Source of the DNA: Chthoniobacter flavus
GTDB lineage: Bacteria > Verrucomicrobiota > Verrucomicrobiia > Chthoniobacterales > Chthoniobacteraceae
Assembly (NCBI GenBank): GCA_945861435.1
Contig: CAMAUX010000042.1
Coordinates: 1-47,167 of the forward strand
Length of the DNA stretch: 47,167 nucleotides
Direction of reading: 5' to 3'
The translations under genes were made by a program, and so were the position numbers. Positions within the stretch are counted from its first letter, which is position 1. The number at the start of each line of letters is the position of its first letter. This document shows, one piece after another, positions 5,934 through 47,038 of the stretch. The notes under the pieces were generated by a model that was given only the letters and a program-made list of their open reading frames with translations, was not told the origin of the DNA and searched no databases.

Positions 5934-7079
5934 ATGCTCATGCACTCACTCCCCCCCCAGCATGCCAGCGCCCGCCTGCCAAGGGGCGCAACCAACTCCA
6001 TCCACCCTGCTTTCCACCAGAGGTTGCGGCTCGTCGCCCTGACTGCCCTCCTGCTTCTGGGCGCCTGCAATCGGGGCCCCCAATCCGCACACCCGGACAT
6101 CACCTCTCCCCGCCTCGCCCTCGAGGCACTCGGATCCCCCAAACCCCTCTTCCACACAGCAGCCGCCCAACCGTGGCTCCTCAAAGAGCACCCCGCCCTG
6201 CTCAGCGCAGAAAACAAAGACCCGCTCTCCCCTCGCAACCGCGCTTTTCAGCAAGCCCTCCAAAACCCCGGCCTCTTCCGGCAACTCGACCGCGAGGTGC
6301 GCTTCGAAGCCCTCCTGCTCACGGGCGACGTGGGCGAATGCAAACCCCTGCTCGAGCATCTCCAAAAATCGCCCGACTGGCACCTCGCCTACGTCGATCA
6401 CACAAGCTTCATCTTCCAACGCTCAGCCCGCGCCTCATGGAATGCATCCGAGCCCGACAGTCTCGCGTCTCACTTTGAAAAAAAGTCCGACCAAGCCACC
6501 GCCCTCGCCCTCTGCGCCCAGAAACTCCTCGCCTTGAAGATGAACGAGGCGGCCAAGACACGCCTCGAACGCGCCACCGAACTCGATTCCAAATGCGCCG
6601 ACGCATGGAATGGCTTTGCACGCTACCACCTCGCAATCGGCCATTGGGAAAAAGCCCTCACCTGCGTCGAACGCGCTTTGGAAAACGCTCCCGACTCCCT
6701 CGCCGCACTCGCCACCAAGGCCCAGATCCTTTTCACCGCAAGCCGCTTCGCCGATGCCTACGAGTGCTCCAAGAAACTCATCGAGGCCAGACCGGACGAT
6801 TCGTTCCTCCTTTTTTACCACGCCAAAATCGCCCACCAGTCCCACGCATACCAATCGGAGATCGCCGCCCTCGAAAAACTCATCAGCCTTGCAGAGGCCA
6901 ACCAGGCCACCACCTCCGGCTACCGCATTTACCTCGCCCAAGCCTACGCCGCACGCTCCGAAGCCGCCCCGGCCATCGCCCAACTCGAACGCGCCCTCGG
7001 CGACCCGGACCTCTCAGCCGAACAACGCTCCTTCTGCGAAGAGCTCCTAGGTCAGATCAAAAAACGTTCCCGCCGCTGA
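5934..7079 (+). CDS. TPR-repeat lipoprotein
   Basis: This is a 381-aa protein from the ATG at 5934; an ATG at 5940 is also possible. A hydrophobic segment ends in the lipobox LLGAC with the lipidated Cys at about residue 45, so export and membrane anchoring are likely. The C-terminal half has TPR-like helix pairs, for example the stretches around AWNGFARYHLAIGHWEKAL and LATKAQILFTASRFADAYE, which are typical protein-binding scaffolds. The frame is open further upstream but runs across the tRNA-Lys gene, and the N-terminus from 5934 already supplies a signal. The gene converges on the FKBP gene, with a hairpin between them. No specific partner can be named. Confidence 0.8.
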   Translation: MLMHSLPPQHASARLPRGATNSIHPAFHQRLRLVALTALLLLGACNRGPQSAHPDITSPRLALEALGSPKPLFHTAAAQPWLLKEHPALLSAENKDPLSPRNRAFQQALQNPGLFRQLDREVRFEALLLTGDVGECKPLLEHLQKSPDWHLAYVDHTSFIFQRSARASWNASEPDSLASHFEKKSDQATALALCAQKLLALKMNEAAKTRLERATELDSKCADAWNGFARYHLAIGHWEKALTCVERALENAPDSLAALATKAQILFTASRFADAYECSKKLIEARPDDSFLLFYHAKIAHQSHAYQSEIAALEKLISLAEANQATTSGYRIYLAQAYAARSEAAPAIAQLERALGDPDLSAEQRSFCEELLGQIKKRSRR

Positions 7080-7126
7080 TCCTCCGACCTCACCGGGCTG
7101 GACCGGGACACGCCCAGAAAAGCAAA

Positions 7127-7184: not shown

Positions 7185-8390
7185 CTACTTCCGGATATCG
7201 AGCAACTCGATATCAAACACCAGCGTCCCACCGGGAGCCCCGCCGCCGGGATTCTCCCCGTAGGCCAGCCCAGCAGGAATCCAGAAGCGCCTCTTCTCCC
7301 CCTTCACCATCAACTGCACGCCTTCCGTCCAGCCCTTGATCACCTGGTTGAGCGGGAAACTGGTCGGCTCCCCGCGGGTCACCGAACTGTCAAAAAGCTT
7401 ACCGTCCGTCGTCCACCCAGAATAATGCACGCTCACCGTGTCGGTGGCCTTCGGATGATCCTTCCCTGTCCCCTCGGAGATCACCTTCGATGCGAGCCCG
7501 GAATCCGTCTTCTGCGCATCGGCCGGCGCTGCGGCCACATCCGCCGGAGCGGCGGGCGGCGGCACCCCTGCCTTGAAGGAAACCAACTCCACCTCCACCA
7601 CAAGTCCACCCGCAGGCGCTCCCGGAGGGGTCTCACCACCAAACGCCAGCTTCGCAGGAATCCACACCACCCGCTTCTCCCCGTTCACCATCGTCTGGAT
7701 CGCTTCCGAAAGCCCGCCAATGCGGAACTTGTCCAGCGGCACCTCCGCCGGCTCACCCTGCTGTGCGGTGCTCTGCAGCAAATCCCCGTCCGCACTCCAA
7801 AGCGCGAGGTTCACACTCACCGTATCAGCCGCCTTGGGCGACGCAGCCCCCGTCCCCTTGGTAATGACCTGCATCGACGCACCAGCACCCGTCTTCTGCG
7901 CATCCGCCGGCGCAGTCAACGCAGGCGCCTTCGGCCCCTTCTTGATCGAGATCAGCTCAATGTCGAACACCAGCATCCCACCCGGACGCCCGCCCCCCGG
8001 ATTCTCACCATAGGCAAGACCCGCAGGAATCCAGAACCGGCGCTTCTCGCCCTCCACCATCAACTGCACTCCCTCCGTCCATCCCTTGATCACACCCTTG
8101 AGCGGGAAACTCGTGGGTTGCCCACGCTTCACCGAACTATCGAAAAGCTTCCCGTCCGTCGTCCATCCCGAGTAGTGCACCGTCACCGTGTCCGCCGCCG
8201 CGGGATGCTCCGTACCGGTCCCCTCGGAGATCAGCTTGGATACGAGACCGGACGCCGTTTTTTCCGCATCCTTGGGAGCGGCCTGAACATCTGCGGGAGC
8301 TTCGAGCATAGTGTCTTTGGAAAAGAGTGGTTGAGGAATGGAAAGGAGCGTCGCTCCAATACAGAACAGCAGGGGGATCCGGTTTTTCAT
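7185..8390 (-). CDS. Secreted peptidyl-prolyl isomerase with three FKBP domains
   Basis: This 401-aa protein has a signal peptide (about residues 1-24), so it acts in the periplasm or at the outer membrane. Three FKBP modules lie at about 48-150, 170-274 and 298-401. They are joined by Pro/Ala-rich linkers with the repeated phrase APADAQKT or a close variant. Modules 1 and 3 are nearly identical and keep the active-site segments VHYSGWTTDGKLFDSS, GWTEGVQLM and IPAGLAYG. Module 2 has diverged: VNLALW replaces VHYSGW, LLQST replaces LFDSS and GLSEAI replaces GWTEGV. It may therefore be structural. FKBPs catalyse proline cis/trans isomerisation and assist folding. I start it at the ATG at 8388-8390, which gives the signal peptide; the frame is open upstream but that part is not protein-like. 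Confidence 0.92.
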   Translation of the reverse strand: MKNRIPLLFCIGATLLSIPQPLFSKDTMLEAPADVQAAPKDAEKTASGLVSKLISEGTGTEHPAAADTVTVHYSGWTTDGKLFDSSVKRGQPTSFPLKGVIKGWTEGVQLMVEGEKRRFWIPAGLAYGENPGGGRPGGMLVFDIELISIKKGPKAPALTAPADAQKTGAGASMQVITKGTGAASPKAADTVSVNLALWSADGDLLQSTAQQGEPAEVPLDKFRIGGLSEAIQTMVNGEKRVVWIPAKLAFGGETPPGAPAGGLVVEVELVSFKAGVPPPAAPADVAAAPADAQKTDSGLASKVISEGTGKDHPKATDTVSVHYSGWTTDGKLFDSSVTRGEPTSFPLNQVIKGWTEGVQLMVKGEKRRFWIPAGLAYGENPGGGAPGGTLVFDIELLDIRK

Positions 8391-13797: not shown

Positions 13798-14211
13798 ATG
13801 GAACTTCTCGCCCCTGAAAGCCCACTCGCCGAACGCACCCGCAGCCTCTGCCAGGCACTGCTCGACGCATCCGAGTTCTCCTCTCTCAAGCGCGACCTCG
13901 ACGCCTTCATGGGCGACGAAGGCCTCAAGTTCCGCTTCCAGCAAGTCAACGACCTCGGCCGCCTCCTGCACGACAAACAAAGCCACGGCCTCGAACTCAA
14001 GGGCGACGAAATCGAGCAGTTCGAATCCCTGCGTTCCGAACTCATGTCCAGCGCCATCGTCCGCGACTTCCTCGCCGCACAGGACAAAGTCCAGCAACTC
14101 CACTCCATCGTCGCCAAGTTCCTCGACAAAACTCTCGAACTCGGCCGCATCCCCGAATGGGACGACGTTCAGAGCGGCTGCTGCAACACCGGCGGCTGCG
14201 GCTGCAACTAA
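13798..14211 (+). CDS. YlbF/YmcA-family protein with Cys-rich C-terminus
   Basis: This is a 137-aa all-helical protein starting MELLAPESPLAERTRSLCQ. The centre resembles the YlbF/YmcA (RicF/RicA) fold, with SFxxLKRDLDAF-like and LRSELMSSAIVRDFL helices. It ends in SGCCNTGGCGCN with four cysteines at 128, 129, 134 and 136. In Bacillus, RicA/RicF/RicT form a complex that carries iron-sulfur clusters on Cys residues and affects RNA processing. Whether this homolog does the same is inference. I prefer the ATG at 13798 to the in-frame ATG at 13762, because the extra 12 residues are not conserved-looking. Confidence 0.8.
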   Translation: MELLAPESPLAERTRSLCQALLDASEFSSLKRDLDAFMGDEGLKFRFQQVNDLGRLLHDKQSHGLELKGDEIEQFESLRSELMSSAIVRDFLAAQDKVQQLHSIVAKFLDKTLELGRIPEWDDVQSGCCNTGGCGCN

Positions 14212-14320: not shown

Positions 14321-15490
14321 TTACCGCCCAATTCGCAGCACCCTTCCAAAAGGCGGATCATTGGCCCGCGTATCCACGTAGATCCAGAGCGTCGGATACG
14401 ATGCCGTCGGCGGGAAAGCCCCATATCCATCCGTCAGATAGATGAGCGCATCCACATGCATGCACTCCTCCCGCTGACGCTGTGCCACCCAATCAAACGC
14501 AGGCCGGAAATCCGTCCCGCCTCGCCCAGCCACGGTGAATTTCCCAAAGGGGACCGCCTCGTGCGTTTCGTAAACCACCGCATCCGCCACCGCCGCGTCC
14601 ACCTGGAGCAACGTCACCCTGCAGTCCACGGTGGCGCGCAGATGCTCGATCTCTCCGAGCACCTTGCGCAACTGCTCCTCGCTCATCGAGCCCGAGGTGT
14701 CGATCACCACCACCAAGTTCTCCACCCCGGGCCGCCCCAGTGAGGGAAGATAGATCCCCTGCCACACATGCCGACGATTGGGCGGCATCAACCGGTAATC
14801 GTCCTTGCGCACCGAAGACATGAACTGCGCCAGCACAGCCTGCCACGGCACCTCCTCAGACACCGCCGCCGCCAACTCCCCACGAAAGCCCCCGCGCAAA
14901 ATCCCCCGCCCCTGCCCCTCCTTCACCAACTCCCGCCGCAATTCACGCCGCATCCATTCGCGTTCCTCCTCCGAGAGCGTGCCTCCATCCTCCGCATAAC
15001 CACCGCCCTCATTCCCCGTCAGATGCTGGTCGAACCGCCCCCATCCGCGGCTCTTTCCAAACAGATCCCCCACCCCTCCCCTCGCCGCCAGGTCCTTGTA
15101 AATCTCCTCGCTGGTCATGCTCGAAAAACGCCTGTCCAGCAGACCCTCCGCGGGCATCTGGAACCCAAAGTCATCCAGCATCAAATTCGTCGCGTAATCG
15201 GCCGCGATGTTCCAAAGCTCGGGCTCCCTCTCCCCCCTCCGATCCGCGTGCCCCAGCACGCAGTGCAGAAGCTCGTGCGCCAGCACAAACACCCGCTCAG
15301 CCTCCGAGAGGCCCTCGCAGAAGCCCCGGTGAAAAAACACCCGCATCCCGTCGGTCGCCATCGTCCGGCACCACCCGCCCTCCGTCGCATCCACCATCCC
15401 CAGTCGCGCCAGCGCCGCGCCAAGATACGGCTCGTCCAACATCAACTGCACCCGCGCCCGCACAAGCCACTCCGGCCACTCGTCGCTCAC
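14321..15490 (-). CDS. DUF2201-type metallopeptidase-like / VWA domain protein of the retron operon
   Basis: The 389-aa protein has two parts. The N-terminal part holds FVLAHELLHCVLGH, an HExxH zinc motif at residues 72-76 with a further His at 81, followed by the Asn/Asp-rich helix ELWNIAADYATNLML. This is the arrangement of putative metallopeptidases of the DUF2201 group. The C-terminal part is a VWA-like domain with an intact MIDAS: DTSGS (264-268), Thr in GGTDF (about 326) and Asp in LTDG (about 354). A charged linker (about 165-200) joins them. The GTG start at 15490 overlaps the stop of the MoxR gene by 4 bases (GTGA), so translation is probably coupled. MoxR ATPases typically remodel VWA proteins, so this is the likely effector or its trigger. 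No substrate can be named. Confidence 0.88.
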   Translation of the reverse strand: MSDEWPEWLVRARVQLMLDEPYLGAALARLGMVDATEGGWCRTMATDGMRVFFHRGFCEGLSEAERVFVLAHELLHCVLGHADRRGEREPELWNIAADYATNLMLDDFGFQMPAEGLLDRRFSSMTSEEIYKDLAARGGVGDLFGKSRGWGRFDQHLTGNEGGGYAEDGGTLSEEEREWMRRELRRELVKEGQGRGILRGGFRGELAAAVSEEVPWQAVLAQFMSSVRKDDYRLMPPNRRHVWQGIYLPSLGRPGVENLVVVIDTSGSMSEEQLRKVLGEIEHLRATVDCRVTLLQVDAAVADAVVYETHEAVPFGKFTVAGRGGTDFRPAFDWVAQRQREECMHVDALIYLTDGYGAFPPTASYPTLWIYVDTRANDPPFGRVLRIGR

Positions 15491-16473
15491 AGCACAAGAT
15501 CCCCGTGCTTCGCCATGAACTTCCGCACCCCCTGCAGCCTCCCAAACGTCCTCGACACCTGCAGCATCTGGCGCAGCAACAGCACCGCAAGCTCCGGCTT
15601 GAGCCGCGTCAACAGCGTCGCCGCCGCCTCCCCCACATCCTCGTGCCTCGCAATCGCCGGCACATACGCCACCAACGCGTACTGATCCGCCAATCCCTTC
15701 GGCAGCGGCGCGCTCGCAGGCGCCGCCAGAATCGCCCGAATCTCCGCCTCCCCAATCGAATTGCGGCAGAAGCTCAGGAACTCGATCGCCGCTCCCTCCC
15801 CCACAGTCCCCACATACACCGCCTGATCCTCCGCACGCACCCCCCCAAGGGAACCCACCACATCGGACACCATCTCCCAGGAGCGCGGCGTCGGAAATCC
15901 GCGCTCGGGCTTGCTCATGTCGAAAAGGAGTTCCCGCCGCAGACTCAGGAAACCAATCACCAGCGGATGCACCTCACGCCCCGTCGCCCACGCACGCCAG
16001 TCTTCGAAGTCCGTCTCAAACTCCAAATGAATGAACCGATTCGCCAGCGCAGCCGGCATCCGGAACACCACCGACGCATCCGTGGACCGGTTCCCTGCCG
16101 CCACAATGCGCCAGCCCTCCGGCAGCACATACTCCCCAATGCGCCGGTCCAGCGTGAGCTGGTAAAGACTCGCCTGCACCAGCGGCGGCGCCGCATTGAG
16201 CTCGTCGAAAAACAACAGCCCCGTGCTCTCCGCATCGTGCGGCAGAAACGACGGCGCACACCAATGCGCACGCCCATCGCGCACCATCGGCAGCCCGCGC
16301 AAATCCGTGGGATCCAGCAGCGGCGCACGCACATCCCTCACCTCCAGCCCCGCCTCCGCAGCCACCTGCCGCACCACCGAACTCTTCCCCACCCCGGGCG
16401 GCCCCCAAAGAAAAATGGGCCAGCGTGTCTTCACGAGAGAGTTGAGCGACTCAATGATTCGGGAGGGGCGCAT
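15487..16473 (-). CDS. MoxR-family AAA+ ATPase of the retron operon
   Basis: This is a 328-aa single-domain AAA+ protein. Walker A is GPPGVGKS at residues 24-31, Walker B LLFFDEL at about 85-91, and the sensor-1 Asn sits in VAAGN near 127. Conserved ANRF near 143-146 likely includes the arginine finger. The C-terminal helical lid follows. The phrase DPTDLRGLP and the helix-2 insert region are typical of MoxR. MoxR proteins form rings that act with VWA partners to activate or assemble targets, and its 4-base overlap with the VWA gene supports that pairing. I start at the ATG at 16471-16473 (MRPSRIIESLNSL); the in-frame upstream residues look non-coding. It lies 91 bp after the unknown third gene. 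Confidence 0.93.
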   Translation of the reverse strand: MRPSRIIESLNSLVKTRWPIFLWGPPGVGKSSVVRQVAAEAGLEVRDVRAPLLDPTDLRGLPMVRDGRAHWCAPSFLPHDAESTGLLFFDELNAAPPLVQASLYQLTLDRRIGEYVLPEGWRIVAAGNRSTDASVVFRMPAALANRFIHLEFETDFEDWRAWATGREVHPLVIGFLSLRRELLFDMSKPERGFPTPRSWEMVSDVVGSLGGVRAEDQAVYVGTVGEGAAIEFLSFCRNSIGEAEIRAILAAPASAPLPKGLADQYALVAYVPAIARHEDVGEAAATLLTRLKPELAVLLLRQMLQVSRTFGRLQGVRKFMAKHGDLVL

Positions 16474-20274: not shown

Positions 20275-20475
20275 GAAGGCTGGCCGGCGTTACTTCAATC
20301 CCGTCCCGCGGACTCGGAGCGCAGGTTTTAGAACGGTGCATTTTGAGACGAGCTCGCGAATCTCAAACTGCACCGTTCTAAAACCTGCAGCGCCGAGTTC
20401 GCCCCGCTTGCCCGCCCCTTGCTTTCGATCCTGGCGAAACACCAGGTGAATCTAAACTTGTGCCGGCCAGCCTTC
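20275..20475 (-). ncRNA. Putative retron msr-msd RNA
   Basis: Read on the minus strand, the element begins with a1 (GAAGGCTGGCCGGC, 20475-20462) and ends with a2 (GCCGGCCAGCCTTC, 20288-20275), a perfect 14-bp pair. After a1 comes TTTAGATTC, where G at 20452 is a candidate branching guanosine. It is followed by the msr hairpin CCTGG-TGTTTCG-CCAGG (20446-20430), whose loop resembles the GTTTCG loop of the E. coli Ec86 msr as I remember it. The msd is a long hairpin: a perfect 20-bp stem (20388-20369 with 20340-20321), then one mismatch and 7 more pairs, around a 12-nt apex. An outer pairing, CCGAGT/ACTCGG (20393-20398 with 20312-20317), extends it. A run of 7 U follows a2 before the RT gene starts 48 bases further on. 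The location directly 5' of the RT is the canonical one. Confidence 0.9.
20312..20398. repeat. Long inverted repeat forming the msd stem
   Basis: The arms 20321-20340 and 20369-20388 are perfectly complementary over 20 bp. The inner arms TTTGAGA (20342-20348) and TCTCAAA (20361-20367) continue the stem after one mismatch. The outer arms ACTCGG (20312-20317) and CCGAGT (20393-20398) continue it after a small asymmetric internal loop. No other inverted repeat in the window that I found is this long or this perfect. Confidence 0.95.
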
Positions 20476-23384: not shown

Positions 23385-23711
23385 TCCACAAGGAAGCGCT
23401 CTCATCCAAAGCGACGTCCCGAGGGACGCGCTCACATCCCTCCTCTGAAGGGCAACCCGCGTCGGAGTTGCAACCCAGAACGCCCCTCCACGCGCTCAGA
23501 CGCGCCCCCACTCCTCACGCTGGCTTTTTGTAAAACGCAGCCGGCGCGGTCTTGCGATACTTCGGCCGCATCCAGGCGAGATCGCAGCGACCAGCGAAAC
23601 CGCACTCATTGGGAGAGATGCCGCCCACGGCTGCCAGCTCGCACACAGACAAGCGTGCCCCAGAGCTTTCTTTTTTGTCGGTCGCAGAAAACGATGAGGC
23701 GCTCCTCCGCC
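23385..23711. other. Intergenic, upstream of the sulfatase cluster
   Basis: The region begins with a short duplication of ACAAGGAAGCGC (about 23368-23399). Around 23520-23690 a minus-strand frame reads ...LAWMRPKYRKTAPAAFYKKPA and then stops. It could be the end of a decayed gene, but I cannot assign it. No clear promoter for the sulfatases is visible. Confidence 0.35.
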
Positions 23712-25181
23712 ATGAAACACACGCTCGCGCACACCGCCACCCGCCAGCTGACATCGCTCGCCCTTTGCTTTGCCGCGGCAACCGACCTGCACGCAGCGGA
23801 CGTGCACCCGACATTTCAACCTCGTGCATCAGCAACACCGCAGGCAGGAGGGCCTGCGTCACGCCCCAACATCGTCTTCATCTTCGCCGATGACTGGGGC
23901 TGGGGCGACCTGTCCTGCCACGGGCACCCCTATGTGAAAACCCCGAACCTCGACCGACTCGCGAAAGAGGGCACGGACTTCTCACGCTTCACCGTCGCTA
24001 GCGGCGTGTGCTCGCCAAGTCGCACCGCCGTGATGACAGGACATTTCCCGGCCCGCTACAACATCGACGGCCACTTTGCGTGGGCGAAGAACAATGCGCA
24101 GCGCAACATGCCGGACTGGCTCGATCCAAAGACACCGACGCTGCCGAAGATGCTGCAATCCGCAGGCTATGCGACGGCCCACTTCGGCAAATGGCACCTC
24201 TCCAACGACATGATTCCAGATTCGCCGCTGCCGAAAGCCTATGGCTACGACGAATACGGGGCCTTCAACTGCGCAGGAGAGCAGATGCCGGTGCATGAGG
24301 ATGCCGACCACGCGATCGCGTTCATCAAGAAGAGCGCTGCGGCGAACAAGCCCTTCTTCATCAACCTCTGGATGCACGAGCCACACACCCCGTTCCACAC
24401 GGTGCCGAAATATGAATGGCGCTTCCCCGATATGGAAAGCCGCGAGGACCAGATCTTCGCTTCCGTGCTGTCCCATGCCGATGATCGCATCGGCCACGTG
24501 CTGGATGCCTTGGAGCGCCTGAATCTGACGGAAAACACGCTCGTCGTTTTCAGCTCCGATAATGGCCCCGCTCGCTCGGCCCGCCCCGCAAAACTGGAGT
24601 TGAGCTACGACACCGCCACCGGTGCGGGCTGGGGAATCGCGGCGTCGAAGGGAACCACCGCCGGCCGCAAGGGCTACAAGGCCGCGCTCTTCGAAGGCGG
24701 CATCAATGTGCCGTTCATCGCCCGCTGGCCCGGAAAAATCGCCGCAGGGAAGATCGACAACGCCTCGCTCATTTCCGCCGTCGATCTGCTGCCCACGTTC
24801 TGCGAACTCGCCGGCGCGAGACCACCCGATGGCTACCAACCCGACGGAATCAGCCAGGTCACCACGTTGAAGGGTAATGCGACCCCAACCCGATCGAAGC
24901 CCCTCTTCTGGCGCATGGATGGCGCATGGCCGCCAAAGGCGGATGCCCCCTTTCATTGGGCGACCTACGCGGTGGTGGACCGACAGTGGAAACTGCTCTC
25001 AAATCGCAACGGCAGCCACACAGAACTCTACGACATCGCCGCTGACCCGCTCGAAACCAAAGACCTCGCATCCGACAAACCCGGCGTCGTGCAGGAGATC
25101 ATGTCCACGCTCAATCAATGGAAATCCACCCTGCCAGAAAAGCCGAACAGCGATGTCTTTTCCGCGGAGCGCTCGAAATAA
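23712..25181 (+). CDS. Secreted sulfatase 1 of three (formylglycine-dependent)
   Basis: The 489-aa protein has a signal peptide ending near LHAAD. The sulfatase core follows: metal site FADDWGWGD, then CSPSR, in which the Cys is converted to formylglycine. FGKWHL and the second metal site SSDNGP come after. Formylglycine sulfatases cleave sulfate esters, mostly from sulfated polysaccharides in this phylum. Activity needs a maturase (FGE or anSME), none of which is in this window. The ATG at 23712 gives the best signal peptide; 23694 is possible. Base use is less C-biased than in the neighbouring genes. Confidence 0.95.
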   Translation: MKHTLAHTATRQLTSLALCFAAATDLHAADVHPTFQPRASATPQAGGPASRPNIVFIFADDWGWGDLSCHGHPYVKTPNLDRLAKEGTDFSRFTVASGVCSPSRTAVMTGHFPARYNIDGHFAWAKNNAQRNMPDWLDPKTPTLPKMLQSAGYATAHFGKWHLSNDMIPDSPLPKAYGYDEYGAFNCAGEQMPVHEDADHAIAFIKKSAAANKPFFINLWMHEPHTPFHTVPKYEWRFPDMESREDQIFASVLSHADDRIGHVLDALERLNLTENTLVVFSSDNGPARSARPAKLELSYDTATGAGWGIAASKGTTAGRKGYKAALFEGGINVPFIARWPGKIAAGKIDNASLISAVDLLPTFCELAGARPPDGYQPDGISQVTTLKGNATPTRSKPLFWRMDGAWPPKADAPFHWATYAVVDRQWKLLSNRNGSHTELYDIAADPLETKDLASDKPGVVQEIMSTLNQWKSTLPEKPNSDVFSAERSK

Positions 25182-25267
25182 GAAACCGAACCCTCATGGA
25201 ACACAGCCTTGCTGTTGCCTGTATCTCTCTGAAATCAACCATGCAGGCTGTTTTACGACCATTTTTG

Positions 25268-26686
25268 ATGCAGCTTCGCTGGCCGTCTTTACTGCGCTCG
25301 GCTCTCGCCGCCCCGCTGCTCGTGTCGCTTGGCGCTCTCCATGCCGCTGATGCGCCAAAGCCCAACGTCCTCGTCATCCTCGCGGATGATTTGGGTTACG
25401 CCGACATCGGCGTTCACGGCTGCAAAGACATCCCAACGCCAAACATTGACCGCATCGCGGCGCGCGGCGTGCGCTTCACCGATGCTTATGCGAACGGCTC
25501 CTTCTGCACGCCGACCCGCGCCGCTTTGATCAGCTGCCGCTATCAGCAGCGCTACGGCATTGAGGACCTCGGCGGGCCCCTGCCAGCGCAGGCCAATCCT
25601 TTGCCTCAACGCCTCAAGGCAGCGGGCTACGTGACGGGCATGGTGGGCAAGTGGCACCTCGGCTCGACCAGAGATTTCACGCCGGTGGATCGGGGCTTCG
25701 ATGAGTTCTTCGGCTTCGTCGGCGGCGGACATCAATACCTCGCCCAGCCGGGCGCAAAGGGCGAATACAACGCGCCCATCCTACGCAATCGCGAACCGGT
25801 AAACGAACAGCGCTACCTGACGGACGCCTTCGGCGAAGAGGCTGCCGCCTTCGTCGAGCGCCAGCGTGAATCAAAGAATCCTTTCTTCCTCTACCTCGCC
25901 TTCAACGCTGTGCACACGCCCTTGCAAGCCCCCGAGAAATACCGCACGCGCTTCCGCAACATCGCCGATCCCAAACGCCAGACCTATGCCGCCATGCTCA
26001 GCGCAATGGATGATGCCATCGGCCTCGTACTCGCAAAGCTTGAGCAGACCGGCAAACTCAACCAAACGCTCATCGTCTTCACAAACGACAACGGCGGCCC
26101 GACCACGCGCAACGCCGTCAACGGCTCGCTCAACACTCCCCTGCGCGGCTCCAAGTGCGAGACCTTCGAGGGCGGCATCCGTGTCCCCCTGCTCCTGCAG
26201 TGGCACGGCGTCATCGCACCCGGCACGACGTATTCAAAGCCCGCGATCAGCTTCGACATCAGCGCCACGGCCCTCGCCGCCGCGGGCGCCGACGCCACTG
26301 CCATCGACGGCGTGGATCTGCTCCCATTCGTCAAAGGCGACAAGTCCGGCGCACCGCACGACATCCTGTTCTGGCGCAGCCGCACGATGAGCAACAACTA
26401 CGGTGCGCGCCAAGGCGTTTGGAAATATGTCCATAGCACCGAAGGCGACGCAGCGCCCGGCCCCAAACAAAGACCCGCGCAAGACATGCTGTTCAACCTC
26501 GCAGACGATCTCGGTGAGCAACGCGATCTCGCCGCCCAACAACCCAACAAACTCGCCGAACTCAAGATGCTCTACGCCACCTGGAGCAATGAGGTCGACG
26601 CTGACTGCCGAAAGTTAGGACTCGAGCCGAAACCGTCCACCCCAGCCCCCGCCAAGAAAGCCACTCCCCCTGTAGTCTCACAATGA
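25268..26686 (+). CDS. Secreted sulfatase 2 of three (CTPTR type)
   Basis: This sulfatase is 472 aa from the ATG at 25268. In-frame ATGs at 25241 and 25196 are alternatives, the last of them 15 bp after sulfatase 1. The signal peptide ends near LHAAD. Metal site LADDLGYAD, then FCTPTRAAL with the Cys destined to become formylglycine, VGKWHLG and FTNDNGGP follow. The closing region has the usual sulfatase tail with MLFNLADDLGEQRDL. The CTPTR core and DLGYAD differ from its neighbours (CSPSR, DWGWGD), so it belongs to another sulfatase subfamily and probably has a different substrate. Its stop codon overlaps the start of sulfatase 3 (ATGA at 26683-26686). Confidence 0.94.
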   Translation: MQLRWPSLLRSALAAPLLVSLGALHAADAPKPNVLVILADDLGYADIGVHGCKDIPTPNIDRIAARGVRFTDAYANGSFCTPTRAALISCRYQQRYGIEDLGGPLPAQANPLPQRLKAAGYVTGMVGKWHLGSTRDFTPVDRGFDEFFGFVGGGHQYLAQPGAKGEYNAPILRNREPVNEQRYLTDAFGEEAAAFVERQRESKNPFFLYLAFNAVHTPLQAPEKYRTRFRNIADPKRQTYAAMLSAMDDAIGLVLAKLEQTGKLNQTLIVFTNDNGGPTTRNAVNGSLNTPLRGSKCETFEGGIRVPLLLQWHGVIAPGTTYSKPAISFDISATALAAAGADATAIDGVDLLPFVKGDKSGAPHDILFWRSRTMSNNYGARQGVWKYVHSTEGDAAPGPKQRPAQDMLFNLADDLGEQRDLAAQQPNKLAELKMLYATWSNEVDADCRKLGLEPKPSTPAPAKKATPPVVSQ

Positions 26687-28062
26687 ATCGATCCTTCACG
26701 CTCCTCACCGCACTGCTGCTCGCAACGCTCCACGCACTCCAAGCTGCGGATGCCCCCAAACCCAACATCGTATTCATCTACGCTGACGATTGGGGCTGGG
26801 GCGATTTATCCTGCCACGGAAACACATGGTTGAAAACTCCGCGCCTCGATCAACTGGCCAGTGAGGGCATTGATTTCCAGCAGTTCAATGTGCTCAGTCC
26901 CATCTGCTCGCCCAGCCGTGCCGCCGCCCTGACCGGGCGCTTTCCGGGTCGCTTCGGAATCAATACCGTCTTCGGCGTCGGCAAACCTCCGGAGATGCCG
27001 GACTGGTTGACCCCAAAAGCACCCACGATACCACGCTTGCTCAAAACAGCGGGCTATCACACAGGCCACTTTGGCAAATGGCATCTGGGGGAGGGGAAAC
27101 CAACCATGGCGGACTACGGCTTCGACGAGTCGGCCGTCTATCACGGACCAGGACCGAAAATCGGACCGTATGGAAACGAGATTCCCAATCGCGCGGTGAA
27201 GTTCATCGAGGCTAACAAAGACCGCCCGTTCTTCGTCAACGTGTGGCTGCATGAAAGCCATCTCACCCACAGCCCTTCGGACGAAGCCATGGCGGCATGG
27301 AAACATCTCGACCCCACGCAACAGGTCTACGCAGCGGTCATCACCGACGGCGACAACAAGGTCGGCATGATCCTCGATGCACTCGAGCGGTGCGGCATCG
27401 CGCAGAATACCTTGGTGGTTTTTTCCAGCGATAACGGCCCGGCAAAATCCAAGGAAAACGACAAAGGCGTTCCCGGAAAATATCGCAGCCACTACAGCAT
27501 CGGCGAAACCGGCGGCCTGAGGGGACAGAAAACCAGTCTCTTTGAAGGCGGCGTGCGCGTGCCCTTCATCGTACGCTGGCCGGCTCAGGCTCCCGCCGGC
27601 CTCAAAAACGACACAACCGTCCTGACCGCAGTGGATTTGCTACCCACCTTCTGCGCCGCCGCAAGAGTCCCCCCACCAGCCGACGTCAATGGCGACGGCG
27701 AAAATATGCTCCCAGCTCTCTCGGGCGTACCCCTCGCACGCACCAGACCCATTTTCTGGCGGATCAATGGCAATCAGAGGGACTCCGATTTCTGGCCTGA
27801 CCTGGCAGTACGCGAAGGCGATTGGAAACTGGTGACGACCTTCGATGGGCACAGGGTCGAACTGCACAACTTGAAGTCGAACCGCGCTGAAGACGTCTCC
27901 AAAGATCAGGCAAAGGAACATCCCAAAATCGTCGCTCACCTGAAAAAACTCGCGCTCGATTGGAATGCCACGCTCCCCGAGAAACCGGATTCCGAGTGCA
28001 TCAGCAAGGAGTCGCAACAACCTCCAAAGAAAAAACCTCAGACAAATGCCGAGGAGGCGTAA
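26683..28062 (+). CDS. Secreted sulfatase 3 of three
   Basis: The 459-aa protein has a signal peptide ending near LQAAD. Metal site YADDWGWGD, CSPSRAAAL with the formylglycine Cys, FGKWHLGEG and SSDNGPAKS follow. It ends in a Lys/Pro/Gln-rich tail. It resembles sulfatase 1 more than sulfatase 2 (shared DDWGWGDLSCHG and CSPSR), so the two may be related by duplication. The ATG overlaps the stop codon of sulfatase 2 by 4 bases, which suggests translational coupling. The three genes probably form one operon for the stepwise desulfation of a polymer. Confidence 0.95.
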   Translation: MNRSFTLLTALLLATLHALQAADAPKPNIVFIYADDWGWGDLSCHGNTWLKTPRLDQLASEGIDFQQFNVLSPICSPSRAAALTGRFPGRFGINTVFGVGKPPEMPDWLTPKAPTIPRLLKTAGYHTGHFGKWHLGEGKPTMADYGFDESAVYHGPGPKIGPYGNEIPNRAVKFIEANKDRPFFVNVWLHESHLTHSPSDEAMAAWKHLDPTQQVYAAVITDGDNKVGMILDALERCGIAQNTLVVFSSDNGPAKSKENDKGVPGKYRSHYSIGETGGLRGQKTSLFEGGVRVPFIVRWPAQAPAGLKNDTTVLTAVDLLPTFCAAARVPPPADVNGDGENMLPALSGVPLARTRPIFWRINGNQRDSDFWPDLAVREGDWKLVTTFDGHRVELHNLKSNRAEDVSKDQAKEHPKIVAHLKKLALDWNATLPEKPDSECISKESQQPPKKKPQTNAEEA

Positions 28063-42221: not shown

Positions 42222-42271
42222 CATCACCACCCATCACCACCCATCACCACCCATCACCACCCATCACCACC
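42222..42271. repeat. 10-bp tandem repeat CATCACCACC, five units
   Basis: Five units follow each other just upstream of the treZ start codon (39 bp away). Translated on the plus strand it is Pro/His-rich noise. The proximity to the treZ promoter region means copy-number changes could affect expression. Confidence 0.92.
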
Positions 42272-42616
42272 ATCGGGCGCAGGGCCGCGGTGACGCCCCA
42301 CCGTCTTCCTCCCGCTCGTGCGGCTCCCCAACGCTCCACGCGAATCTCCCGCGGCCAGCCACCAGCCACGCTCCAAACAACGCTCCAAACAACGACCTTG
42401 AGCCCGCTCCTGAGCCCGCTCATCAACGGCCCATCACCTAAACCCACACCACACCCTCAATCACCATACTTCCCTCTTTCTTTCAGCCCTCCATCGAGTC
42501 CCTCAACAACTTCGTTCAACGAGCTTAAAAGCAAGCCCTCCAGCACTCCCATCCCAGCACCACCGAGCACATCAAAGACCATCCGGCACGCCCGGACTGC
42601 GCGCCCTAAAACCGTC

Positions 42617-42697
42617 CATGTCGTCCACGTCGTCCACGTCGCCCACGTCGTCCACGTCGTCCACGTCGTCCACGTCGTCCACGTCGCCCACGTCGTC
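42617..42697. repeat. 9-bp tandem repeat CACGTCGTC, nine units
   Basis: Nine 9-bp units, the first CATGTCGTC and two carrying GCC instead of GTC, then a degenerate end. All six frames stay open, producing VHVVHV and TTWTTW peptides that should not be annotated. A related CATGTCGTC array lies at 43601-43672 on the other side of the SGNH gene. Confidence 0.95.
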
Positions 42698-42821
42698 CAC
42701 CAAAGTTCCCCAGCCCACCAGAAGTCCGCATTCAGCGTCCCCCCACTCTCCACATCGAGAGCGGGGCGCTCGGCGGTGGTGCTGCGCTCCCGCAAATTGA
42801 TTCTCCCCACCCTTCCCAACC

Positions 42822-43502: not shown

Positions 43503-43600
43503 TCCTGATTGCTGCCACAACCACCCCCGCCACTCAACGCCCCAATAGCACCAATGGCCCGGTGCACCACAGCCACCCAGCCCGCACCCCCCTCCCCATC

Positions 43601-43672
43601 CATGTCGTCCATGTCGTCCATGTCGTCCATGTAGTCCATGCCGTCCATGCCGTCCATGTCGTCCATGTCGTC
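43601..43672. repeat. 9-bp tandem repeat CATGTCGTC, eight units
   Basis: Eight units (CATGTCGTC, with one GTAGTC and two GCCGTC variants) lie between the SGNH gene and the gmhB-like gene, 45 bp upstream of the latter's start codon. It is the same family as 42617-42697 with CAT in place of CAC. Confidence 0.95.
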
Positions 43673-43717
43673 CATCACTCCCCTCCCACTTGCCAACCCG
43701 CGTATGCTTCCCCGCCC

Positions 43718-46876: not shown

Positions 46877-46940
46877 AAGGGACAAGCATCAATAGCACTT
46901 AGTTAAGGGCGCCGCTCGTGCCTTACAGAGGGTGCCCCAA

Positions 46941-47038
46941 GACCAAGACCAAGACCAAGACCAAGACCAAGACCAAGACCAAGAACCAAGAACCAAGAAC
47001 CAAGCACCAAGAACCAAGAACCAAGAACCAAGAACCAA
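46941..47038. repeat. 6-bp then 7-bp tandem repeats
   Basis: Seven units of GACCAA (46941-46982) pass directly into eight units of GAACCAA (46983-47038; the fourth is GCACCAA). A one-base insertion in the unit seems to have converted the period from 6 to 7. Confidence 0.93.

Follow-up and report, generated by a model that had tools for sequence, protein, structure and literature searches.

Organization of the Locus

The whole stretch of 47,167 bases of the Chthoniobacter flavus contig that was analysed, called the window here, carries on its minus strand an operon in the order reverse transcriptase (RT), a protein of no known family (X), a MoxR-type AAA+ ATPase and a DUF2201 protein, with the predicted msr–msd RNA of a retron upstream of the RT. 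The coordinates of these features are collected in Table 1, together with the methylase genes found in three related loci.

Table 1. Features of the retron locus in the window and methylase genes of related loci (G015, L072, L073 and L074 are the relatives described below).
Feature	Position	Strand	Remarks
a1 arm	20462–20475	minus	14/14 pairs with a2; two two-sided compensated differences from G015
Predicted 2'–5' branching G	20452	minus	TTTAGA context; AG 5 or 6 nt before the hairpin in 5/5 ncRNAs
msr hairpin	20430–20446	minus	CCTGG-TGTTTCG-CCAGG core; 7 pairs, UUU loop; two-sided changes in 3/7 pairs across relatives
msd	20308–20402	minus	Outer 13-nt imperfect stem and long inner stem
Outer msd stem, 13 nt	20308–20320 / 20390–20402	minus	85% complementary
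Inner msd stem	20321–20348 / 20361–20388	minus	20 perfect pairs, 1 mismatch, then 7 pairs
ATTGAAGTAAC stretch adjoining a2	20289–20299	minus	Identical in G015; probable template start
a2 arm	20275–20288	minus	Pairs with a1, 14/14
Retron RT, 912 aa	17488–20226	minus	Helical N-terminal part, about 1–640; RT domain, about 641–905, with NAxxH, YADD and VTG
X, 305 aa	16565–17482	minus	No known family; between RT (or methylase) and MoxR
MoxR-type AAA+ ATPase	15487–16473	minus	AAA_5 and AAA_3 above cut-off; Walker A and B
DUF2201 protein, 389 aa	14321–15490	minus	HExxH zincin-like and vWA domains; PF13203 1.2e-34, PF09967 8.6e-22
N6/N4-type DNA methylase, L072	10291–11094		SPPY motif; between RT and X
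N6/N4-type DNA methylase, L073	10285–11052		PF01555, SPPY motif; between RT and X
N6/N4-type DNA methylase, L074	2449–3201		SPPY motif; between RT and X

The RT matched 71 PADLOC families, the best 25 of which were all retron-type RT models, with RT_XIII at the top (228 bits, residues 644–904). NCBIfam returned a retron St85-family RT below the cut-off, the closest solved structure by sequence in the PDB was the Ec86 RT, and structural comparison of the modelled RT gave retron, group II and other RTs among the first 50 matches. Residues 1–640 gave no Pfam match and are predicted to be all helix with no strands, at low confidence around residues 107–290, in a model with a mean pLDDT of 66.5 that was built for the window protein only, from an alignment of five sequences.

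For X of the window, no Pfam or NCBIfam match above the cut-off and no PADLOC match was obtained. Since its structure model was poor (pLDDT 60.4), the fold search, with no match at E ≤ 0.001 and a best Z of 6.1, was left unused. The MoxR gene probably starts at ATG 16473, giving 328 aa, and not at TTG 16599 as in the list of open reading frames; MoxR of G015 is likewise 328 aa long from the matching Met. The DUF2201 protein contains HELLH in its zincin-like domain and DTSGSM (MIDAS) in its vWA domain, and by its HExxH motif it is a putative peptidase. No PADLOC retron effector model matched X, MoxR or the DUF2201 protein of the window and of G015 at E values up to 1.

The cassette has a YlbF-like gene and a polyphosphate kinase as neighbours in the window and does not lie in a defence island. 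Between positions 14000 and 20900, the promoter scan gave no sigma-70-like site, and 10 terminator-like sites were counted against a shuffle mean of 7.9. Elsewhere in the window, three consecutive sulfatase-like genes were recognized by eye from the translations on the plus strand (23655–28062), and short-period tandem arrays occur at 1–216, 42222–42271, 42613–42700, 43599–43675 and 46937–47038, with units of 11, 10, 9, 9 and 7 bp, respectively.

Architecture of the Predicted ncRNA

All the msr–msd elements that a first-pass annotation had placed on the minus strand were found there when checked in the sequence. The 14-bp a1/a2 ends pair at every position, and the msd stem, described as 20 perfect base pairs with 7 further pairs, contains both segments, separated by one mismatch. 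The distance of 48 nt from a2 to the RT is also right, provided that GTG 20226 is the true start. For the msr hairpin, the sequence and the place held and the pair count did not, the fold having seven pairs, two more than had been given. Its loop had been called UUUCG-type, and it folds instead as a UUU loop closed by G–C, which leaves the resemblance to the Ec86 msr suggested for this loop a presumed one. With its single hairpin, the msr is closer to that reported for Eco2 (PMC12405507). The choice of G 20452 as the predicted branch point agrees with the comparison of relatives, in which the AG is kept in all five ncRNAs and the alternative G 20457 is replaced by A in G015. In three of these ncRNAs (L072 and both of L073, named L073a and L073b), the AG before the hairpin is followed by a second G, so that either G may be used there. 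The stretch adjoining a2 has the counterparts TTCAAAGT in L072, TTTAAGT in L073a and TTTGAGT in L073b.

Perfect inverted pairs of at least 14 bp with a gap of 120–260 occur exactly once in the 47,167 bases, and these are a1/a2. Perfect stems of at least 20 bp with a loop of up to 60 also occur exactly once, as the msd stem, nested inside a1/a2. When the window was shuffled 60 times with its dinucleotides preserved, the 14-bp pairs averaged 0.017 and the 20-bp stems 0 per shuffle, and no shuffle contained the nested set, which bears out the earlier judgement that the ordered set is unlikely to have arisen by chance. A hairpin of at least seven pairs closing a G-UUU-C loop likewise has a single occurrence in the window, the msr hairpin itself, and the 211-nt RNA folds with an energy 8.5 standard deviations under the mean of 200 shuffles. 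A search of the whole window with Rfam at gathering scores gave no retron family, and the sole match was a tRNA elsewhere; the likeness to animal and plant microRNA precursors seen below the threshold is due to the long stem only.

Distribution of the Operon and Divergence of Its Genes

The initial genome scan with the RT alone gave no relatives. Using the N-terminal part (599 residues) against 213 genomes of the order, two were found, the genome of the window and G015 (contig CANJPY010000028.1), which belongs to the same family and carries all four genes of the window operon, arranged identically. Scanning the contigs of 84,980 species with a pattern of the RT C-terminus, which needs two short peptide patterns and lets RT relatives lacking them escape, gave four loci: G015, L072 from a contig labelled Akkermansia, L073 from an alphaproteobacterial MAG (labelled Beijerinckiaceae) and L074 from a contig labelled Phycisphaerales.

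In L073, the order is RT, DNA methylase, X, MoxR and DUF2201, and in L072 and L074 it is RT, methylase and X, with both contigs ending inside X. The succession RT–X–MoxR–DUF2201 is thus kept in the three loci that reach far enough (window, G015 and L073), and the full operon is known from only two loci besides the window. No methylase gene lies between RT and X in the window or in G015, and none was matched anywhere in the window. The NAxxH, YADD and VTG motifs are intact in all five RTs of the group. In the three full operons, the Walker A and B motifs of MoxR and the HExxH and MIDAS motifs of the DUF2201 protein are also intact, and the MoxR gene shares 4 nt with the DUF2201 gene.

Identity of the window proteins to those of G015 and L073 is 69% and 55% for MoxR, 63% and 46% for the RT domain, and 53% and 40% for the DUF2201 protein; for X, it is 32% with G015 and 37% over 113 residues with L073. 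The RT N-terminal parts of the window and G015 are 24% identical along one stretch of 428 residues and 30% identical along another of 233, and no significant match was found between those of this pair and those of L072, L073 and L074. Since these parts do not match and the helices were predicted for the window protein only, a single function shared by all of them is an assumption. The speed at which X and the RT N-terminal part diverge fits a sensing role.

The identification of X in L074 and L072 was upheld by a profile built without both (E values of 7e-14 and 1e-10, respectively), and X follows the RT or the methylase in all five loci. With the X profile, matches were obtained in 2 of 384 sampled genomes of the class (window and G015), in 1 of 317 of the order of L073 and in 1 of 320 of the order of L074, the last two being the genomes of L073 and L074 themselves; in none of these samples was there a match away from such an RT. 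The X-bearing retron system is rare and patchy within the genomes searched.

Neither the alignments of the N-terminal part and of the RT C-terminus nor the msr pattern found a relative in viral contigs. The RT matched 422 plasmid and 52 phage records, and no match covered more than 80% of the RT among the best 10 of the 422 and the best 5 of the 52. For X, there was no match among plasmids, and a Sinorhizobium plasmid stretch with an RT match (L075) had no match to X, MoxR or vWA.

In a tree of 27 rows, for which 27 of 30 candidate proteins were kept (L008, L039 and L075 were left out), a branch with a support of 98/99 separates the five cassette RTs from the other rows; L033 and L070 form long branches, and the deep order of the tree is unresolved.

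Conservation of the ncRNA in Relatives

An ncRNA was found upstream of the RT in the three relatives with upstream DNA (G015, L072 and L073). The L074 contig starts within the RT gene and is outside this comparison, which therefore comprises five ncRNAs from four of the five loci. The fifth ncRNA arises from L073, where two stand in tandem before one RT (L073a, 6909–7100, and L073b, 7213–7392), with different a1/a2 arms and hairpins.

Loss of the a1/a2 pairing and of the msd stem in close relatives of the RT had been named beforehand as the observation that would speak against a retron. The a1/a2 pairing was kept in the three relatives, and the long msd stem was clear in G015, L072 and L073b and weaker in L073a. 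Across the five ncRNAs, the arms form 14 pairs, 14 pairs (one of them G–U), 11 pairs plus 7 past a bulge, 9 pairs and 12 contiguous pairs. Between the window and G015, two positions of a1/a2 differ on both sides and are still paired, and the sequence of the long msd stem differs with the pairing retained. The best msd stems have 29 pairs with 1 mismatch in the window, 16 with 1 in G015, 21 with 2 in L072 and 20 with 2 in L073b. In L073a, the best stem has only 11 pairs with 1 mismatch, and a pair of 43-nt arms with 72% complementarity is present.

In the alignment of the msr hairpin, all 28 cells pair and three of the seven pairs show two-sided changes. This level of covariation was reached by 8 of 500 shuffles, and alignments that had been slid out of register paired at 32–57%. 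Taken alone, with four distinct rows, the covariation of the hairpin gives modest support to a conserved msr. The core GG-TGTTTCG-CC hairpin also occurs upstream of the RT, on the RT strand, in L042 (7347–7365) and L045 (9075–9093), which are retrons without the X–MoxR–DUF2201 operon; the core therefore accompanies the RT rather than the MoxR set. The system would offer a conserved msr core of very small size through which the RT may recognize its RNA, and L073 would be a natural case of an RT apparently served by two ncRNAs. The retron reading of the msr–msd and RT is supported by these comparisons, as the retron features that could be looked for in sequence were found and the pairing of the ncRNA is kept in relatives.

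Partner Genes Elsewhere and Genomic Context

Thirty other RT places were obtained from 387 sampled genomes of the phylum, and 20 of them were compared with their flanks for partners. None of these 20 Verrucomicrobiota retron loci had a match to X, MoxR or DUF2201 (tblastn, E ≤ 0.001). The DUF2201 domain is present in 6 of 40 genomes of the window's family and is therefore not housekeeping there. At the five other DUF2201 places (L065–L069), a MoxR match adjoins in every case and an RT match in none. Two of these MoxR–DUF2201 pairs, L065 (768–6728, in G015) and L066 (6974–11666, in G029), lie beside HEAT or LRV repeat proteins, and in L067 and L068 the one neighbour scanned in each had no Pfam match. 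The pairs of L065 and L066, without an RT, are possibly stand-alone conflict modules. The arrangement suggests a modular unit of repeat protein, MoxR and vWA, of which the repeat-like part is fused to the RT in the window.

In G015, a DISARM set (DrmC, DrmB, DrmA, DrmMI and DrmD, by PADLOC) starts about 260 nt past the DUF2201 gene and is followed by a further retron-like RT of 377 aa (L005, 10820–13446; L070, 820–17324), and about 1.1 kb ahead of the ncRNA there is a gene matching a candidate-defence model (PDC-S01). L073 has the BREX genes BrxF and BrxC about 5 kb ahead of its first ncRNA.

Proposed Function and Alternative Explanations

Retrons are bacterial units that make DNA from a small RNA, in most cases as a defence against phages, and for them in general 2'–5' priming, the formation of msDNA and the gating of an effector are established. 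We infer that the system of the window synthesizes DNA, acts in defence and includes an effector, and we hold with moderate confidence that it is a retron of a type outside the known retron models, in which RT–msDNA would keep a MoxR–vWA/zincin machine in check. Following retron biology, the C-terminal part of the RT would bind the msr hairpin, prime at G 20452 and copy from about position 20289 through the msd stem, and the product would be a branched RNA–DNA (msDNA) that stays bound to the RT. From the anatomy of the proteins, the RT N-terminal part and X may form a fast-evolving sensing and docking part, and the structure of the operon suggests that the RT–msDNA complex restrains the MoxR–vWA/zincin machine. 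Freed by a phage trigger, this machine would stop the infected cell, its ATPase remodelling client proteins and its HExxH domain cutting them; these last steps, too, are read from protein anatomy. Where a methylase is part of the operon, it could link the trigger to the methylation state of msDNA or of the invading DNA.

Control of the MoxR–vWA machine by the retron is favoured by the position of the G015 cassette beside DISARM and of L073 near BREX. The MoxR–DUF2201 pairs that occur without an RT and the location of the window cassette outside a defence island count against it. Chances appear evenly balanced for the wider proposal of a new type extending over three phyla, with a diverging sensor fused to the RT and an ATP-driven MoxR–vWA/metalloprotease gated by msDNA, some members having a methylase and at least one having two ncRNAs.

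It is conceivable, though rather unlikely, that MoxR–vWA is a maturation or assembly chaperone for RT–msDNA–X, with X or the RT N-terminal part as the toxic component. MoxR–vWA pairs elsewhere assemble or activate complexes, according to passages of PMC7159879, and X matches no fold with its poor model, both of which would suit such an arrangement. However, the HExxH motif is kept in the DUF2201 protein of all three full operons, and it would be needless for a pure co-chaperone.

A diverged member of retron type XIII is a very unlikely identity for the system, despite RT_XIII being the best PADLOC model for the RTs of both the window and G015 (253 bits for the latter). The match is limited to the RT domain, whereas two true type XIII RTs, those of L018 and L011, match almost the entire model with 582 and 603 bits. 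These two lie beside SWIM_XIII and WGR_XIII proteins (found in L038 and L040), and PADLOC detected no SWIM_XIII, WGR_XIII or HEAT-ARM_XIII protein among the partners of the window and G015. In addition, direct comparison of the RT N-terminal part with the WGR and HEAT-ARM proteins of type XIII gave no significant match, and the five cassette RTs do not join the type XIII pair in the tree, the deep order of which is not resolved. Membership in type XIII was rejected because SWIM and WGR partners are lacking and the RT_XIII match does not extend beyond the RT domain.

It is scarcely probable that X, MoxR and DUF2201 are chance or defence-island neighbours with no joint function. The DISARM set adjoining the G015 cassette and the RT-less MoxR–DUF2201 pairs in the same family would fit such a neighbourhood, but gene order and 4-nt overlaps are common to Verrucomicrobiota and an alphaproteobacterial MAG, and the constant place of X after the RT or methylase, with no X in the sampled genomes standing apart from such an RT, points to a joint unit. 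That the repeats are a terminator, an attenuator or the end of a mobile element instead of a retron RNA has a nearly negligible probability, since the long perfect stem and the T residues immediately 3' of the a2 arm on the minus strand, which this explanation has in its favour, stand against ordered elements unique in the window, RT-linked compensated changes, and a1/a2 arms and an msr hairpin present in the RT relatives, where it required their absence.

Comparison with Known Systems

The RT of the window shares the NAxxH, YADD and VTG motifs with those of Eco2/Ec67 and Ec86, whose RT–msDNA complexes have been solved and which are also its best sequence matches in the PDB, and a1/a2 arms are common to these systems; this motif set is named for Eco1 and Eco2 in PMC12405507, where the msr of Eco2 is described, like that of the window, with a single short stem-loop and the msd with a single long hairpin. 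Unlike Eco2/Ec67 and Ec86, the window RT carries about 640 extra N-terminal residues and has other partner genes, and no Toprim domain was found in it by Pfam. Type XIII resembles the window in the RT model that fits best and in long helical-repeat proteins, as judged from PADLOC names; it differs in its SWIM and WGR partners, which are absent here, and in that the RT N-terminal part of the window is without a significant match.

According to Kaur et al. 2020 (PMC7159879, in the text available), MoxR–vWA pairs remodel proteins and are proposed to form the core of conflict systems. There, vWA is proposed to capture a peptide, and ATP-dependent MoxR action to release the bound protein with its conformation altered; VMAP, iSTAND, FtsH and beta-propeller are given as third core components. 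The window is similar to these ternary systems in combining a MoxR AAA+ protein and a vWA with at least one further component; for X, the candidate third component, the lack of a Pfam match above the cut-off and the poor model gave no assignment to any of the four kinds. In contrast to them, its vWA is fused to a zincin-like domain, and in the main text of that article, as far as it was available, DUF2201 is absent, the RTs are those of diversity-generating retroelements and retrons are named once, as relatives of these.

Retrons are classified by effector and operon structure into 13 published types, as quoted in the accessible part of PMC12548924, and the PADLOC-DB 2.0.0 models were used here as a stand-in for the classification of Mestre et al. 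2020. In the literature searched, which lacked most subscription papers and Mestre et al. 2020, no paper was found linking a retron with MoxR, vWA or DUF2201. If the proposed control of the MoxR–vWA machine is true, it would join msDNA-gated abortive infection with the MoxR–vWA conflict systems proposed from sequence, which are separate in that literature, and the locus would offer a test case for the function of a MoxR–vWA machine in defence.

The closest precedent for the classification is Retron-Sda1 (PMC12548924, from the same accessible part), a retron whose partners, like those of the window, fall outside the 13 types and which was called a previously unknown type; it differs from the window in its III-A1-like RT and its HipA-like and DUF3037 partners. 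Since the cassette of the window and G015 fits neither the PADLOC effector models nor type XIII and no paper in the literature searched was found to join its parts, it is most likely a new retron type. What is novel is the rest of the operon, beyond the coordinates covered by the first-pass annotation: judged from its genes, this is apparently a rare, undescribed retron type that controls a MoxR–vWA machine.
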